From NCBI RefSeq assembly GCF_014207855.1, contig NZ_JACHKZ010000008.1, positions 1-64,000 of the forward strand: a DNA stretch of 64,000 nucleotides, read 5' to 3'. The notes beneath the pieces were generated by a model that worked only from the letters and a program-made list of their open reading frames with translations, ran no database searches and had not been told where the DNA came from. Positions 47,994-53,042 of the stretch are shown piece after piece. This stretch comes from Comamonas odontotermitis (GTDB lineage: Bacteria; Pseudomonadota; Gammaproteobacteria; Burkholderiales; Burkholderiaceae_C). Position 1 is the first letter of the stretch. Each line of letters starts with the position of its first letter. Both the position numbers and the translations under genes were made by a program.

Positions 47994-48938
47994 ATGAGTA
48001 TCCAATGGTTCCCGGGGCATATGCACCTGACGCGCAAGCTGATTGCCGAGCGCATCAAAGACATCGATGTGGTGATCGAGGTGCTCGACGCGCGCATGCC
48101 GGGATCGAGCGCCAACCCCGCGCTCACCGAGCTGACCGGCCACAAGCCCACGCTCAAGATCATCAACAAGCAGGACATGGCCGATGCCGCGCGCACTGCG
48201 CTGTGGGTGGACTGGTACGACGCGCAACACGAAACCAAGGCCCTGCCGCTCGATGCCAGCGAGCCCGCGCCTGCCAAGCGTCTGGTGGAAGCATGCCGCA
48301 AGCTGGCCCCCGGGCGCGGGGGCATGGCCAAGCCGCTGCGCGTGCTGATCTGCGGCGTGCCCAACGTGGGCAAATCCACATTGATCAACAGCATGAGCGG
48401 CAAAGGCCAGGCCAAGGCGGGCGACGAGGCGGGCGTCACCAAGGACGAGCAGCGCATCGTGCTGGACGACGACTTTTACCTGTGGGACACACCCGGCATG
48501 CTGTGGCCCAAGATCATCGTGCCGCAGACTGGCTACAACCTGGCTGCCTGCGGCTCGGTCGGCCGCAATGCGTATGACGATGAACTGGTGGCCCTGGAAT
48601 TGCTGCTGTACCTGCAAATGCATTACGCCCGCCATCTGGACGAGCGCTACAAGCTTGGCCTGGACGACGAAGAGATTGCAGCGCTGCACGACGACGAACT
48701 GCTCACCCTGATCGGCAAGAAGCGCGGCGCGGTGATGAGCGGGGGCCGGGTGAACATGCAAAAGGCGGCAGAGCTGCTGATTACCGACTTTCGCACGCAG
48801 ATGCTGGGCCGCATCACCCTGGAGGTGCCTGCCGAGTTTGAGCAGTGGCGGGCGGCCGGAGAAGCCGCAGAAGCCGAGCACCAAGCCAAGAAGGCCGAGC
48901 ACGCCAAGCACCGCAAGGCGGGCCGTAAACGCTATTGA
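47994..48938 (+). CDS. ylqF: YlqF/RbgA-type ribosome biogenesis GTPase
   Basis: A 314-residue circularly permuted GTPase. The order is G4 (IINKQDMAD, about residues 55-64), G1 (GVPNVGKSTLINSM, about 118-131), then G3 (DTPGM), which defines the YlqF group. Members act late in 50S subunit assembly. The C-terminal helical part ends in a Lys/Arg-rich tail (AKHRKAGRKRY). Confidence 0.92.
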   Translation: MSIQWFPGHMHLTRKLIAERIKDIDVVIEVLDARMPGSSANPALTELTGHKPTLKIINKQDMADAARTALWVDWYDAQHETKALPLDASEPAPAKRLVEACRKLAPGRGGMAKPLRVLICGVPNVGKSTLINSMSGKGQAKAGDEAGVTKDEQRIVLDDDFYLWDTPGMLWPKIIVPQTGYNLAACGSVGRNAYDDELVALELLLYLQMHYARHLDERYKLGLDDEEIAALHDDELLTLIGKKRGAVMSGGRVNMQKAAELLITDFRTQMLGRITLEVPAEFEQWRAAGEAAEAEHQAKKAEHAKHRKAGRKRY

Positions 48939-49050
48939 AATATGAGCGCCAGCTTATGCATCTGCAGGGCAGAGTTTGCATCGTTTGCGCTTTGCCTGCA
49001 AATGGCATCCAAAGCCAGCACAAAGTCGTGCAAAGCCTGCTGTTGATGGG

Positions 49051-49079
49051 TTGCGTTTTTGCAACGCATTTTGTATAAT
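49051..49079 (+). promoter_or_regulatory. Sigma-70 promoter of the M41-protease unit
   Basis: TTGCGT (49051-49056), a 17-base spacer and a perfect TATAAT (49074-49079); the transcript should begin near 49086. The -35 region and spacer form an inverted repeat (GTTGC/GCAAC), a possible operator. The 5' leader would be about 310 bases long. Confidence 0.75.
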
Positions 49080-49128
49080 GCTTGATTCCCGCCAGTCTTG
49101 GCACTACATTCAGCGCTCATCTTCTTAT

Positions 49129-49295
49129 CGCTGCAGCAACGAATGACCTTCTGCAGCGCACCGCAAGGAGTTTTTGCTATGTCCTGTTTTATGTTAAACC
49201 ATTTCGACTGAACACGGTTCTTGCCCCGGCTGAACTGTGGTCACACCGTTCAGCCTCGGCCCAGATCGCTGCCTGCTTCCTTTGCAGGCAGGATC
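49129..49295 (+). promoter_or_regulatory. Structured leader with three hairpins (putative attenuator)
   Basis: Stem 1 is CGCTGCAG (49129-49136) with CTGCAGCG (49151-49158), before the leader peptide. Stem 2 is GGCTGAAC (49228-49235) with GTTCAGCC (49248-49255). Stem 3 is CTGCCTGC (49269-49276) with GCAGGCAG (49284-49291), extended by GATC pairs. CTGAAC also occurs at 49208-49213, across the leader stop codon, and could compete for GTTCAG. This is typical of ribosome-controlled folding, but it has not been modelled. Confidence 0.55.
49179..49211 (+). CDS. Putative 10-residue leader peptide (MSCFMLNHFD)
   Basis: A perfect AAGGAG (49165-49170) lies 8 bases before an ATG that opens a 10-codon frame ending in TGA 49211. 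Its stop falls within the first CTGAAC, and a chain of hairpins and an intrinsic terminator follow. Such an arrangement is typical for leader peptides that couple translation to transcription termination. I do not recognise the peptide sequence. Confidence 0.6.
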   Translation: MSCFMLNHFD

Positions 49296-49298
49296 GAC

Positions 49299-49329
49299 AA
49301 AAGCCCTGGCTTCCCCGCCGGGGCTTTTT
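49299..49329 (+). terminator. Intrinsic terminator inside the leader
   Basis: AAAAGCCC (49299-49306) pairs with GGGCTTTT (49321-49328). An inner GGC/GCC extends the stem, and five T residues sit at the 3' end. It stands between the leader peptide and the first structural gene at 49399, so read-through must be allowed for the genes to be expressed, unless another promoter exists. Confidence 0.8.
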
Positions 49330-49398
49330 GTTTGGGCTCGCGCCTCTTCTGGTCTCCTGCTGTGCAGGTGCCTGGCGCGGCCCATGAGGAACCGCACA

Positions 49399-49644
49399 AT
49401 GAGTGCAAAAACCGTTTCCCGTGCCTATGGAGAAGGCCGGGTCAAGGCCTTGCGCCGCATGAAGCAGCCAATGGCGTTGCTGATCGTGGCCGATGCCGCT
49501 CCTTTCAACCCTGTAGCCAAAGCCATGGCCCAGCGGCGTCTGTCCGGCGCCGCCGGCAAGCACATCCGAAGCCAGGGCGCGCAGCGCCGGGCCGACCGCA
49601 TGGCGTTGCAGCAGGTGATACGCAGGGGCAGTCATGACGACTGA
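49399..49644 (+). CDS. Small basic protein preceding the M41-AAA gene
   Basis: An 81-residue protein, strongly basic and Arg/Lys-rich (GEGRVKALRRMKQ, then AMAQRRLSGAAGKHIRS), probably helical, without signal or membrane segment. GAGGAA lies 8 bases before ATG 49399. It overlaps the protease gene by 11 bases (ATGACGACTGA), so their synthesis is coupled. I do not recognise the family; it could be an adaptor, substrate-delivery or nucleic-acid-binding partner (inference). Confidence 0.65.
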   Translation: MSAKTVSRAYGEGRVKALRRMKQPMALLIVADAAPFNPVAKAMAQRRLSGAAGKHIRSQGAQRRADRMALQQVIRRGSHDD

Positions 49645-51718
49645 TTCCATTTTCAAACCATCCGATTGCTTTGTCCTCTTGGGTACGCGAATGGTTGAAC
49701 AATGGAGTACCCCTGCCAATGATGAGAACAAGAACATGAATGATCTGAGAACCCCGAGTGAGCTGCTCCTGCGCGAGCAGATGCATGAACGTCAACAAAA
49801 CCTGCAGGCCATTGCGGCGCAGCTGAAAACCGAATTGATCGGTATTGATGACGTGATCGACCGTGTCATTGGCGCCGTGCGCGCCTGGTACGTGATGCCG
49901 CAGCTCATTACCCGCCCCGTGATCGTGTGCCTGTGGGGCCTCACAGGCACAGGCAAAACCCAGCTGACCAGGCGCCTGGCGCAGCTTCTGGGTTTTTACG
50001 ATCGCTTTGTCGAAGTGCAGATGGATGGCTTCAGCCAGAACAGCGGCAACTATGGCGCATCAACGATTTCCGGCACGCTTGAGAGTGCCGGTCTGGTCGA
50101 AGGTGTGCCCGGTATTCTGGTGCTCGACGAGTTCCAGCGCTACCGCACGGTGAGCAGCCGGGGCGAGGACAGCAAGGTCGAGCGTTACCAGGACGTGTGG
50201 GCGCTGCTGTCCGACGGCAAGCTGCCGCCTGCACTGTCGGAGCTGCACAACATGGAGCGCAAGCTGGCCGATGCGCACTATGAGGCAGAGCGTGAAGACG
50301 GTGATGACGAAGAGGAGCGGCGCAAGAAGCAGAAGCTGCGCTACAAGATCGACGCCTGGGACGCGCAGGCGCTCAAGCGCAGCCTCAAGCTGGCCGAGCC
50401 GCTGATCGAGATCATGCAGTGGAACAATGACTACATCCACCAGCTGCTGGTCAAGTTCCGCGAATCGCAGCAATCCTGGGAGACCGACTACAGCAAGCTC
50501 CTGGTGTTTGTCTGCGGCAACCTCGACGAGATGTACACCGAGACTGCCAGCCGTGTGGAAGACTGCGACACCGATGCCGACATCTTCCACCGGCTCACGA
50601 GCCGGCTGTCGCTGATCGATGTGAAGCGCGCGCTGGCCGAGCGCTTCAAACCTGAGCAGATCGCGCGGCTGGGCAACCACCATGTGATCTACCCATCGTT
50701 CAGCCGCGCCACCTACGAGCAGCTGATTGCCGCTACGGTGCGCAACTACGTGCAGGGCATTGCCGACAACTGTGGCCTGCATTTTGTGATCGGCAGCGAT
50801 GTGCTGGCGCAGATCTACCAGAACGCGGTGTTCCCCACCCAGGGCACGCGTCCGCTGTTCTCGTCGGTGCACACGATCCTGTCGAGCTCGCTGGTCGATG
50901 CAGCGCTCTGGGCGCTGGAGCGGGGCGCGCAGGCAGGCCAGTCGCTGCAGGTGCACATGGCGCCTGATGCGGCGGAGCTGGTAGTGCAGATGCAGCTGCA
51001 TGCAATTGCTGGCGGCCAGGTGCACAGTCAGCGTTTTGCCGTGCCGTTGGATCTGAACCGGATCAAGCAGCGCACCAGCGCGGATTTTCGTGCACTGCTG
51101 GCAGTGCATGAAGCGGGCCATGGCCTTGTGTATGCGCTGCTGTTTGGCCGTGCGCCGCAGGAGCTCAAGATCAACATCGCCACGTTCGAAGGCGGCTATA
51201 ACAGCTTTACCGAGCTGCAGGCCACCTCGCGGCGCAACAAGCTCGACATGGTGTGTGTGGGCCTGGCAGGCCGTGCTGCCGAGCGCCATGTGTTTGGCGA
51301 AGCCGCTTGCACCACTGGTGCCGAGCAGGACATTCGCCAGGCAACGGCTGATGCCGCCCGCTACCTGCGCCACCTGGGCTTTGGCGACCGCCTCTCGCGC
51401 ACCGATGTGGCGGACGAATCCGGTGAGAACATGAACACCGAGGTGGAGCCCACCAACACCGCCATCGAAGCGCTGCTGCAGGCGCAGATGCTGCGTGCCC
51501 AGCAATTGCTGGTGCAGCACAATGCCTTGCTGGTGTCGATGACGGAGGTGCTGATGCGCGAGGGCCTGATCACCCCGGCCGCAATGGTGGCGCTGTGCGC
51601 AGCCCAGGGCCAGCCTGTGGCGCTGACAGTGGCCAAAGGGGGCGACGCGCCAGAGCCCAAGCTGGTGCTGGAGCCCTATGCCAGCATGCTGGCAGTACAT
51701 ACCCAGGGCGCTGCGTAA
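49634..51718 (+). CDS. Soluble AAA ATPase fused to an M41 (FtsH-type) zinc protease
   Basis: A 694-residue protein. The AAA part has ELIGIDDVIDRVIGAVRAW ahead of Walker A GLTGTGKT (about 102-109) and Walker B ILVLDE (about 161-166), more like Clp/HslU-type than the usual FtsH module. The C-terminal half is M41: HEAGH (492-496) for zinc, GLAGRAAERHVFG, and TGAEQDIRQATADAARYL with the third ligand Asp near 566. No membrane helix occurs, unlike FtsH. A charged insertion (EREDGDDEEERRKKQK, about 218-233) interrupts the ATPase. It should unfold and degrade cytosolic targets. Start 49634 is chosen for the overlap with the small gene; internal ATGs at 49691 and 49736 are possible. Confidence 0.85.
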   Translation: MTTDSIFKPSDCFVLLGTRMVEQWSTPANDENKNMNDLRTPSELLLREQMHERQQNLQAIAAQLKTELIGIDDVIDRVIGAVRAWYVMPQLITRPVIVCLWGLTGTGKTQLTRRLAQLLGFYDRFVEVQMDGFSQNSGNYGASTISGTLESAGLVEGVPGILVLDEFQRYRTVSSRGEDSKVERYQDVWALLSDGKLPPALSELHNMERKLADAHYEAEREDGDDEEERRKKQKLRYKIDAWDAQALKRSLKLAEPLIEIMQWNNDYIHQLLVKFRESQQSWETDYSKLLVFVCGNLDEMYTETASRVEDCDTDADIFHRLTSRLSLIDVKRALAERFKPEQIARLGNHHVIYPSFSRATYEQLIAATVRNYVQGIADNCGLHFVIGSDVLAQIYQNAVFPTQGTRPLFSSVHTILSSSLVDAALWALERGAQAGQSLQVHMAPDAAELVVQMQLHAIAGGQVHSQRFAVPLDLNRIKQRTSADFRALLAVHEAGHGLVYALLFGRAPQELKINIATFEGGYNSFTELQATSRRNKLDMVCVGLAGRAAERHVFGEAACTTGAEQDIRQATADAARYLRHLGFGDRLSRTDVADESGENMNTEVEPTNTAIEALLQAQMLRAQQLLVQHNALLVSMTEVLMREGLITPAAMVALCAAQGQPVALTVAKGGDAPEPKLVLEPYASMLAVHTQGAA

Positions 51719-51792
51719 GCACATCTTGGTGCCAAGCGCGGCACAGACCGCGCGGCAGGCCTCGGGCCACCAGTCTTTTTGTTACTTTCAAG

Positions 51793-51820
51793 CCACCCGC
51801 GAACCGCGGGTGGTTTTTTT
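51793..51820 (+). terminator. Intrinsic terminator after the M41-AAA gene
   Basis: CCACCCGCG-AAC-CGCGGGTGG with seven T residues, 75 bases after the stop. Confidence 0.92.
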
Positions 51821-51860
51821 CATGGTGCCTTCGTGCTGCTGCATGCAGAGGCACGTGGCT

Positions 51861-53042
51861 TCATTGCGCGCTGTCGGCGCCTTTGCCGGTCAGCTGGCGC
51901 ACGGTGAATCCTTCTTTTTGCAGCAGCTGCAGCAGGTTGTTGTCTCCCACCATGTGCAGCAGGCCGACTGCGATGAAGAGCTTGGGATTCTGGGCGACCA
52001 GGGGGGAGATGCGTTCTGCCATGCGCTGGTTGCGGTCGTCGAGCATGGCGGTCTTCATGCCCAGGTCGTCCATGCAGTTGCAGGTGCGCATCAGTGTTTC
52101 CAGGGCCGCCAGATCGCCGCTTTGCCAGTGGCGTACCAGCTCGCCGGTCATCTCGCGGCTCTTGCCGCTGCGGATGTCGTCCAGCACCTTGGTGATGTCA
52201 TCGGGCGTGGCAAGGTTGGCCAGTGGATCCTTGCCGCCCAGGCCCATGGCGTCGAGCTGCTCCTGCGCAGTTTCGAGCGGCAGGATGGGCCGGGCCACGA
52301 CCTGCGCCATGGCTGCCAGGTTCAGGTCGATGCCAAAGGCCATGTTGTAGCCATCGCGTGACACATCGGCCACTGCGAGGGCCAGTATCTTGGGGATGGT
52401 GGCCATGCCTTGCCAGCTGTTGCGCTCTATGCACAGCGCCTGGGCCATGGCATCCATGCGCGTGCGCAACTGCGGGTTGTTGCGCATCACCAGTTGCTGC
52501 GCATCGCTGTCGCGTGCCATGGCCTGCATCAAGGTCTGCAGGGTTTGTGGGTCGAGCGGATTGAGTTCCAGCGCAATGGCGGGGGCGGTGCGCAGGGCCT
52601 GCGCGGTACGCGGGCCGGGGTAGATCCACGGCAGCTTGCCCAGGTGAATGGTGCCAAACAGGTATGCGGTGTGCTCGCCTTTGCGCAGCTCCCACAGCAC
52701 GCCCTGGTCGGGATGCGGGCGCTGTGCTTCGGCCTGGTAATCGGCAGGGCTTGGCAATGTGGGCGGGGGGCACTGCAGGGGCGCTGCGGCCGCGTTGGTG
52801 CGAGGGGCCGATTGTGGGGCGCGGGCCTGCGCGCCGGGCGTGGCCAGCAGAGCGCCGCCTGCCAGCGCCAAGGCCGCAAGGCCCGCCTTGACGCCAGGTG
52901 TCTGAAATGAAGTTGCTATATTTTTGATAGCTAATAGCGCTTTACAGTATTGCGCAAGAGGCTGTTTTCCCTGCAAATCTCTCTCCCGGTAGTGGTTGAG
53001 CGCATTGTTGCCGCAAACCAAAAAAAAGCGAATGCCGGGCAT
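51861..53042 (-). CDS. TraB/GumN family protein
   Basis: The clear domain is TraB/GumN: LWELRKGEHTAYLFGTIHLGKLPW, then ALELNPLD, and the late GLLHMVGDNNLLQLLQKEGFTV with the His motif. The family is related to ChaN/EreA-like hydrolases and TIKI proteases. A signal-like segment (GVKAGLAALALAGGALLATPGAQA) precedes it. The true start is unclear: the only ATG (53042) lies in the terminator hairpin of the upstream gene, and the next residues come from a dispersed repeat. A TTG at 52976 is an alternative. Confidence 0.75.
   Translation of the reverse strand: MPGIRFFLVCGNNALNHYRERDLQGKQPLAQYCKALLAIKNIATSFQTPGVKAGLAALALAGGALLATPGAQARAPQSAPRTNAAAAPLQCPPPTLPSPADYQAEAQRPHPDQGVLWELRKGEHTAYLFGTIHLGKLPWIYPGPRTAQALRTAPAIALELNPLDPQTLQTLMQAMARDSDAQQLVMRNNPQLRTRMDAMAQALCIERNSWQGMATIPKILALAVADVSRDGYNMAFGIDLNLAAMAQVVARPILPLETAQEQLDAMGLGGKDPLANLATPDDITKVLDDIRSGKSREMTGELVRHWQSGDLAALETLMRTCNCMDDLGMKTAMLDDRNQRMAERISPLVAQNPKLFIAVGLLHMVGDNNLLQLLQKEGFTVRQLTGKGADSAQ
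52911..52965. repeat. Dispersed intergenic repeat, copy 4
   Basis: TTGCTATATTTTTGATAGCTAATAG and a GCGC-bearing arm, in the 5' region of the TraB/GumN gene; the repeat is read into the predicted N-terminus (ALLAIKNIATSF). Confidence 0.55.

Follow-up and report, generated by a model that had tools for sequence, protein, structure and literature searches.

Here, we describe a two-gene operon and its RNA leader in Comamonas odontotermitis, found in positions 1 to 64,000 of contig NZ_JACHKZ010000008.1 (the window, which means this whole stretch of 64,000 nucleotides (nt)). The operon encodes a small basic protein (P0002) and a protein combining an AAA+ domain with an M41 peptidase domain (P0001). 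We think it probable, though well short of certain, that both genes are controlled by a transcription attenuator that senses the ribosome, and that P0001 is a soluble zinc protease. The homology search proposed in the initial annotation of this DNA revealed that the leader, its upstream open reading frame (uORF), the small gene and the protease gene recur together in many genomes. The features of the locus are as follows.

49051..49079, + strand: promoter, read from the sequence, with -35 TTGCGT (49051-49056), a 17-nt spacer and -10 TATAAT (49074-49079)
49130..49157, + strand: P1 stem-loop, GCTGCAG..CTGCAGC, 5' of the Shine-Dalgarno (SD) sequence, with CGAATGACC in its loop (from sequence and fold)
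49165..49170, + strand: SD sequence of the uORF, AAGGAG, read from the sequence
49179..49211, + strand: uORF of 10 codons (MSCFMLNHFD) with a TGA stop, from the sequence
49213..49239, + strand: helix A, CACGGTTC (49213-49220) paired with GAACTGTG (49232-49239), starting 1 base past the uORF stop
49223..49230, + strand: antiterminator element GCCCCGGC, in the loop of A and the 5' part of B, complementary to the terminator 3' arm at 49317-49324
49228..49255, + strand: helix B, GGCTGAAC (49228-49235) paired with GTTCAGCC (49248-49255)
49264..49295, + strand: variable hairpin in the interval between B and the terminator, from the minimum-free-energy fold
49299..49329, + strand: intrinsic terminator, AAAAGCCCTGGC / GCCGGGGC plus U-tract (the scan lists a shorter stem)
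49399..49644, + strand: open reading frame (ORF) of the 81-amino-acid (aa) basic protein P0002, isoelectric point (pI) 11.9
49634..51718, + strand: ORF of the 694-aa AAA+/M41 protein P0001, start codon uncertain
51793..51820, + strand: hairpin like an intrinsic terminator past the operon, CCACCCGCGAACCGCGGGTGG followed by seven T, read from the sequence

Direct inspection found the features of the initial annotation at the positions it had given in the window, including the sigma-70 promoter, the 10-codon frame with its SD sequence, the terminator and the two genes. The three hairpins it had described are also present, but A and B are alternatives and hence not parts of one structure. The -10 hexamer is a perfect consensus and the -35 is weak, with 3/6 matches; for this reason the consensus scan, whose threshold was at least 4/6 per hexamer, did not list the operon promoter. 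A simple pattern search found an upstream promoter-like pattern in 30/84 leaders. No promoter-like site 3' of 49330 was listed by the consensus scan. The two genes overlap as annotated, an overlap that hinges on the start at 49634. This start is uncertain because relatives other than the nearest one (locus L002) align to the protease only from residue 26 or beyond, and because residues 1-39 had a predicted local distance difference test score (pLDDT) below 50. An internal start at Met20 or Met35, without gene overlap, is possible.

The leader (49086-49400) folded to -135.4 kcal/mol, compared with a mean of -102 for shuffled sequences (z-score -6.69; 0/100 shuffles as good). A known Rfam element was rejected as its identity, since no family reached its gathering score in 48900-51900 (the best in the leader was ncS025, 18.3 vs 46 bits). 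To follow the leader across genomes (loci and genomes carry L and G numbers below), we used R1, a covariance model from 38 leaders, which matched 91/100 related loci and gave 84 distinct leaders. Alignment A2 held 42 leaders chosen from the 71 that carried the anchor pattern, and A3 held 38 of those 42. The related-loci set of 90 repeats genomes in places (e.g., L003/L023 and L009/L046), and only identical rows were removed. Because R1 was built on the structure of B plus terminator, the counts for A and the antiterminator in alignment A6 are independent of the model structure, and those for B and the terminator are dependent on it.

A uORF of 7-11 codons ending at the same point was observed in 84/84 distinct leaders. 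An SD-like tetramer preceded its ATG in 73 of the 84, and all ATGs that had an SD sequence and lay 18-48 nt upstream of the uORF stop were in frame with that stop (73/73). The stop was TGA in 80/84 leaders, and the base before it was C in 84/84; the search pattern for the stop had itself demanded this C, and 0 leaders failed the pattern. From the stop to CCCCGGC the distance was 12-18 nt in 83/84 leaders. The frame and the position of the stop were kept while the peptides were not conserved, with 53 different sequences among the 84. They were rich in S, F, L, T, P and A, no residue after the initial Met was universal, and no peptide had a run of more than two identical residues. As far as sequences can tell, the leader thus has the short uORF with SD sequence and conserved frame that is expected of an attenuator.

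Perfect stems (at least 5 pairs, loop of 5-12 nt) were found before the SD sequence in 65/84 leaders, a count made without a chance control; the search missed the P1 of the window itself, which has a 14-nt loop. A 9-nt loop of the type CGANNNACC or CTANNNACC was present in stems of L009, L010, L040, L051, L055, L057, L088, L168 and L170, and one of the type CGANNNCCC in L053. The CGANNNACC-type loop recurs while the outer stem pairs change. This 9-nt loop may resemble a stretch of 16S rRNA, and it is a possible binding site.

Helices A and B share 49232-49235, so they are mutually exclusive, and both show two-sided changes. In A6, 93.5% of cells were paired in helix A, with two-sided changes in 6/8 pairs, and 88.4% in helix B with its extension (5/10 pairs); in A2, the 8-pair version of B had 89.6% of cells paired and two-sided changes in 4/8 pairs. 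Helix B hides the GGC of the antiterminator element and, in many leaders, the GCC as well. The CCCCGGC core was able to form 7/7 pairs with the core of the terminator 3' arm in 81/84 leaders, and 99.1% of cells in this pairing were paired (A6). Both of its sides had changed together in Vandammella (L081 and L102, CCCTGG:CCAGGG), and G-U variants were present in L040 and L047. For the main helix of the terminator 90.4% of cells were paired (A6); its 5' arm carried a U-G pair in 47/84 leaders and varied more than the 3' arm (21 vs 5 aligned versions in 91 rows, partly through alignment effects). The variable hairpin differed between species in length and sequence. A plus antiterminator and B plus terminator each beat 500/500 shuffles in all five measures, as well as slid control versions (A6). 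Comparison of the A hairpin with shuffled sequences gave a mean z-score for folding energy of -3.1 (range -6.6 to 0.3 over 84 rows), and in prefix folding, done without a shuffled control, A preceded B in the nascent RNA in 84/84 leaders, with a median lead of 19 nt. These comparisons support mutually exclusive RNA structures with covariation, and an intrinsic terminator lies ahead of the first gene, both being hallmarks of an attenuator. The covariation check suggested earlier therefore turned out in favor of the leader structure, as the uORF, the helices and the terminator recur with the genes and show two-sided changes.

A mechanism can be proposed from this arrangement. A ribosome with a stop codon in its A site covers about 9-10 nt past the stop. 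During normal growth, the ribosome at the uORF stop would mask approximately 49212-49221, which is the 5' strand of helix A. With A masked, B would form and sequester GCCCCGGC, the terminator would fold and transcription would stop (OFF). When translation falls short of the uORF stop, due to blocked initiation, an early stall or a shortage of ribosomes, A would form first and block B; GCCCCGGC would then be exposed in the loop of A and could capture the 3' arm of the terminator, so that RNA polymerase would read on (ON). The protease would then degrade cytosolic substrates that are abundant through translation failure. A short uORF of free sequence fits general translation failure as the signal, as reported for the duf1127-1 leader and, with antibiotics, for the vmlR leader, both compared below.

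The occurrence of the unit was examined at several taxonomic levels. Carriers were mostly environmental bacteria. A scan of named genomes gave 91 protease relatives, of which 80 were kept (79 at 47-85% identity and L101 at 34%). The named isolates belonged to genera that we assign to Comamonadaceae and Sphaerotilaceae, plus one Cupriavidus (L040), and some rows were metagenome-assembled genomes named to class or phylum. Strong protease homologs were present in 10/37 genomes of the genus, including the genome of the window, and matches in 11 others were short M41 or AAA similarities. Among 329 genomes of the family, the protease was found in 34, the small protein in 42 (E-value 1e-4) and the leader in 27 (E-value 1e-5). 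A leader of at least 40 bits was present in 23/329; all 23 had the small gene and 20 had the protease. The tie of the leader to the small gene is no looser than its tie to the protease. The gap from leader to small gene was 13-68 nt in 22/23 of these genomes, as measured from coordinates; in the exception, G652, the small gene lies on another contig and a transposase-like gene is inside the leader. In a sample of 300 genomes of the order, in which few of the family were drawn, the genome of the window was the sole one with the protease. The unit was seen by eye near hrpA-like genes at L168, L028, L053 and L076 and near argA-like genes at L168, L170, L028 and L053.

The true leader scored 90.2 bits in its own genome, where the next site had 23.9 bits, and no other leader site above 38.1 bits was found in the 300 genomes of the order; on these scores the idea of a general switch ahead of many genes was rejected. 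Four weak sites of the order sample (L174-L177) resembled ordinary terminators by eye. Three weak matches in the family (35.7-38.5 bits in G458, G403 and G468) came from genomes without the protease, and that of G458 adjoins a tRNA-like sequence. Among family genomes that had the protease or a strong small-gene match and yet no leader at E-value 1e-5, G410 had a leader match of 33.6 bits, and L204 (G473) and L214 (G351) gave no leader match.

Leader and genes also occur apart. G590 (L168) and G555 (L170) contained the leader and the small gene and no protease match. In G449, G541 and G610, the protease gene has no leader match and is on a different contig from the leader, which occurs there with a variant small gene. 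L040 and L088 have the leader directly ahead of the protease, with no small gene found within 1 kb upstream. It follows from these separate occurrences that the leader can control either gene and that the small protein is not simply a subunit needed by the protease. Hence the suggestion of the initial annotation that the small protein is a partner of the protease does not hold in the sense of an obligate partner. Its expectation that the leader is conserved with the genes was borne out in many genomes and failed in some relatives, where the leader was missing at the thresholds used. That annotation had noted neither the position of helix A, at the place a ribosome at the uORF stop would occupy, nor the separate pairing of the antiterminator, nor the protease relatives on large-phage contigs.

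A number of observations weigh against the proposed attenuator. At E-value 1e-4, R1 detected no leader in 9/100 sources (L056, L065, L070, L080, L082, L087, L091, L098 and L101; L091 gave a 27-bit match in a smaller search). At E-value 1e-5, 21/34 protease genomes had the leader and 13/34 lacked it, and of the small-gene genomes (E-value 1e-20 or better) 24/32 had it and 8/32 did not. A small-protein homolog was near the protease in 80/90 loci, and in 10/90 it was not found within about 1 kb upstream. Covariation of the antiterminator amounts to a single event plus wobbles, namely one compensatory change of C-G to U-A in L102, with the same variant in L081, and the pairing would have to arise from within the hairpin loop of A. 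Exceptions to its core are L169 and L078, in which the terminators are broken, and L081 (6/7 pairs), while the outermost pair fails in L057, L075 and L088. In the smaller alignment A2, 10-14 of 500 shuffles did as well as the real leaders in 3/10 measures. The U-tract is absent from the terminators of L068 and L100 (Pelomonas). Equilibrium folding is also on the other side: B plus terminator was better than A plus antiterminator in 80/82 leaders, and the antiterminator duplex was better than the terminator hairpin in just 18/82 (the total is 82 because no terminator pattern was obtained for two of the 84). By partition function, B and the terminator dominated in most of 71 leaders, whether or not region 1 was masked; A won without the ribosome in five (L045, L048, L076, L083 and L096), and the antiterminator won in all three tested states in four (L061, L072, L092 and L093). 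Since equilibrium folding favors OFF, the ON state must be kinetic, with switching during RNA synthesis, and the folding models thus suggest a leader that is OFF by default in most species.

Several of these unusual leaders have features of their own. The terminator of L078 is broken by an insertion. In L169 (G652:C5), a gene that looks transposase-like by eye follows the first terminator arm and splits the leader from the genes. L068 and L100 keep the uORF, CCCCGGC and the CCGGGG arm in spite of the loss of the U-tract, and these two leaders may be natural, constitutive variants.

Other ways of reading the same leader were considered. One is that the attenuator works with the opposite sign or on another signal, being ON while a ribosome lingers at the uORF stop because of slow UGA termination, shortage of release factor 2 or an arrest peptide. 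The predominance of TGA and the constant C before the stop would suit such a device, and helix A itself could promote pausing and termination; moreover, because helix A begins just behind the uORF stop, this stop is the sensing point under any model. On the other hand, TGA is the commonest stop codon in such GC-rich genomes, and the lack of conservation of the uORF peptides makes an arrest peptide less likely. The terminator lies outside both A and B, and the only link to it that was found is CCCCGGC, which is hidden by B and left in the loop of A. We therefore regard this reading as unlikely. Amino-acid attenuation of the trp/ilv type, in which the uORF would gauge one charged tRNA, is suggested by the layout, as a short uORF, alternative helices and a terminator are also found in classical attenuators, but it has very little probability in our view, given that no residue beyond the initial Met is common to all peptides and that long runs of one residue are missing.

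The distribution described above raises a further alternative, in which the leader binds a ligand or a protein and the uORF is secondary; for instance, the small protein could regulate its own synthesis via P1 or the GCCCCGGC loop. Every genome with a strong leader also had the small gene, the leader of G449, G541 and G610 precedes the small gene instead of the protease, the small protein is very basic and the P1 loop recurs in several clades. However, some leaders yielded no P1, the leader and the protease occur in L040 and L088 without a nearby small gene, and the uORF frame, which plain protein binding would not need, is kept throughout. We judge a binding leader to be quite improbable and prefer the ribosome-sensing attenuator.

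As to the product of the second gene, P0001 has complete ATPase and zinc motifs and an AAA domain of Clp/HSP100 type, and no membrane helix was predicted in it (the Kyte-Doolittle mean over 19 residues peaked at 1.52, at residue 639), as had been claimed for a soluble M41-AAA protein. Its motifs are the following.

P0001 residues: Walker A 102-109 (GLTGTGKT); Walker B D165/E166; N296, R345 and R406; zinc site H492, E493, H496 and D566

G102, G105, G107, K108, T109, D165, E166, N296, R345, R406, H492, E493, H496 and D566 were invariant among 53 proteins, L101 included (A5). We take N296, R345 and R406 to be sensor 1, arginine finger and sensor 2, respectively, based on known Clp motifs. The HExGH pattern was present in 89/90 loci, the exception being L097, which is interrupted by stops. 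Pfam Peptidase_M41 (PF01434) matched residues 484-649 with 60.7 bits (cut-off 29.9; 63 bits in the genome search), so that both the profile and an HExxH motif with a distal Asp in a GAExD-type motif (GAEQD here, aligned with GAE-D of FtsH) place the protein in peptidase family M41, and Pfam AAA matched residues 98-185 with 30 bits (cut-off 21.2). An AlphaFold model based on the 53 sequences had a pLDDT of 79.1 and a predicted template modeling (TM) score of 0.71, with a predicted helical stretch at about 200-280, between the Walker B and sensor regions. In Foldseek, the second nucleotide-binding domain (NBD2) of ClpB ranked first (TM score on target 0.67; 0.58-0.71 among the top 30), and FtsH entries were close behind over both domains, with the help of the M41 domain. 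The motif set of Clp/HSP100 (HCLR-type) proteins is thus present, and the fold is nearer to Clp D2 than to other AAA+ domains. Taken together, P0001 appears to be an ATP-driven, zinc-dependent cytosolic protease with a Clp-type motor, which probably forms a hexamer.

It could be argued that P0001 is an ordinary FtsH paralog that lost its membrane part, as the M41 domain is homologous to that of FtsH and the same genome also encodes a separate, ordinary-looking FtsH (a 647-aa frame, G000:C11, 247 bits). This seems highly improbable to us: the AAA part has better sequence matches to ClpA, ClpB, ClpE and Hsp104, the M41 part being the one that matches FtsH, and ClpB NBD2 comes first by fold. The FtsH model TIGR01241 gave 52.7 bits vs a cut-off of 600, over residues 456-646 only, and the N-terminal transmembrane helices of FtsH were not found. 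An assignment to a defense system was rejected, as PADLOC gave weak AAA matches only (best DolB, 8.5e-07, residues 53-171).

The small protein P0002 had no match in Pfam, NCBIfam, PADLOC or PHROGs, and its predicted structure was helical with low confidence (pLDDT 67.3). A role in ribosome or RNA binding is a guess. ArfA (PF03889) was rejected as its identity because P0002 and four relatives, two of which are near-copies of real rows, had no Pfam match; the best PF03889 score in the whole genome was 11.9 bits, at another site. On the minus strand at L213 (G379), where R1 detected no leader, a 53-aa protein carries the pattern RNPxVAxA..H.(K/R)S..A.R of the C-terminal half of P0002, and the two may possibly belong to a wider family of small basic proteins. 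A search of the C. odontotermitis genome with the G379 protein gave nothing convincing, the best match being among genes that look prophage-like by eye.

Relatives of the protease were also found on contigs of large phages. L101, which aligned over 623 residues at 34% identity, lies among genes that look phage-like by eye. While earlier viral scans with A1 or L101 alone detected no relative, a profile-guided scan of IMG/VR (A5) identified 38 protease loci on contigs of up to 548 kb. Seven neighboring genes were tested, at L221, L222, L231 and L255. L222 is near genes for a clamp loader, a DNA helicase and a tail-like protein, L231 near one for nicotinamide phosphoribosyl transferase and L255 near one for thymidylate synthase. 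The tested neighbor of L221 is a transposase, and L220, L221 and L241 may for that reason be bacterial contigs with a diverged copy; these three are called viral, on IMG/VR contigs of 96-314 kb. Among 31 of the 38 IMG/VR loci and L101, R1 detected the leader only in L218 and L219, both of them probably bacterial. A tree of 55 rows, which covered 31 of the 38 loci, united the bacterial proteins and L218/L219 in one group (100/100) whose neighbors were viral contigs, and it placed L101 among viral contigs. An exchange of the protease gene between large phages and an ancestor of these bacteria is probable. A move from phage to bacterium is likely and no more than that, because the tree has an arbitrary root and several very long branches, and the frame in which L249 was read is wrong. 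Carriage by plasmids or cultured phages was rejected in the absence of a full-length match: no INPHARED record had a full-length relative of the P0001 architecture by tblastn, and one such search gave 15 records, in each of which the similarity lay in the M41 part and covered no more than 28% of the query.

A broader and much more tentative proposal, which we consider possible without thinking it likely, is that bacteria built the operon, with a phage-type protease, as a response to translation failure. In this case, a leader sensing the arrival of a ribosome at the uORF stop would control this protease and a small protein that binds the ribosome or RNA, the two would jointly clear products or components of failed translation, and the protease would represent an undescribed class of one-chain soluble proteases that large phages use during infection.

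If these proposals are true, the few types of AAA+ protease known (Clp, Lon, HslUV and FtsH) would be joined by a soluble one in which motor and peptidase are paired in a new way, and an RNA element would report completion of a uORF via one extra switching helix. Since the leader occurs in nature apart from either gene, it would provide a translation sensor that is ready for use and can be tested. Exchange of a proteolytic machine between phage and host likewise becomes testable through the relatives on phage contigs.

Both ribosome-mediated attenuation and AAA+/M41 proteases are known kinds. We found no description of this unit in the open-access literature, in line with the initial annotation, which knew of no described system of this form; what we failed to find there is the combination, the extra switching helix, the soluble chain of Clp motor and M41 peptidase, and the relatives on large-phage contigs. 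Like FtsH and the i-AAA and m-AAA proteases (M41), P0001 has an AAA+ motor and an M41 peptidase on one chain, HEAGH with a distal Asp, and sequence and fold matches in the peptidase part. Unlike them, it has no predicted transmembrane helix, its AAA+ domain is nearer to Clp/HSP100 D2, and it contains the helical stretch at about 200-280. The AAA+ domain resembles D2 of ClpB/ClpA/ClpC and HslU, with ClpB NBD2 as the best Foldseek match and partial matches to ClpA/ClpB profiles, whereas the peptidase is fused in cis instead of being a separate ClpP or HslV, and the chain lacks a second AAA+ domain. An FtsH-like protein of the Pseudomonas jumbo phage MIJ3 is reported to be closer to bacterial FtsH (PMC6892783); it is alike in being an FtsH-like protein on a jumbo phage, while the relatives of P0001 type are on IMG/VR contigs.

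The leader is comparable to two translation-dependent leaders. In the duf1127-1 leader of Sinorhizobium meliloti, uORF translation is needed for attenuation, tetracycline relieves it and chloramphenicol also induces; the DUF1127 genes are small and the proteins arginine-rich (PMC12218461). It is a sensor of translation inefficiency, as proposed here, but Rho and a rut site within the uORF are proposed to take part in its attenuation (PMC12218461), whereas the present leader has an intrinsic terminator and alternative helices. The vmlR leader of Bacillus subtilis, which is reported to respond to antibiotics, has a 3-codon uORF inside the anti-antiterminator, a toeprint located 16 nt downstream from the start-codon A and a downstream ABC-F gene for antibiotic resistance (PMC9226507). 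It shares with our leader a short variable uORF, competition among anti-antiterminator, antiterminator and terminator, and intrinsic termination; the difference is that our leader has an additional helix, A, which adjoins the uORF stop and competes with the anti-antiterminator B.

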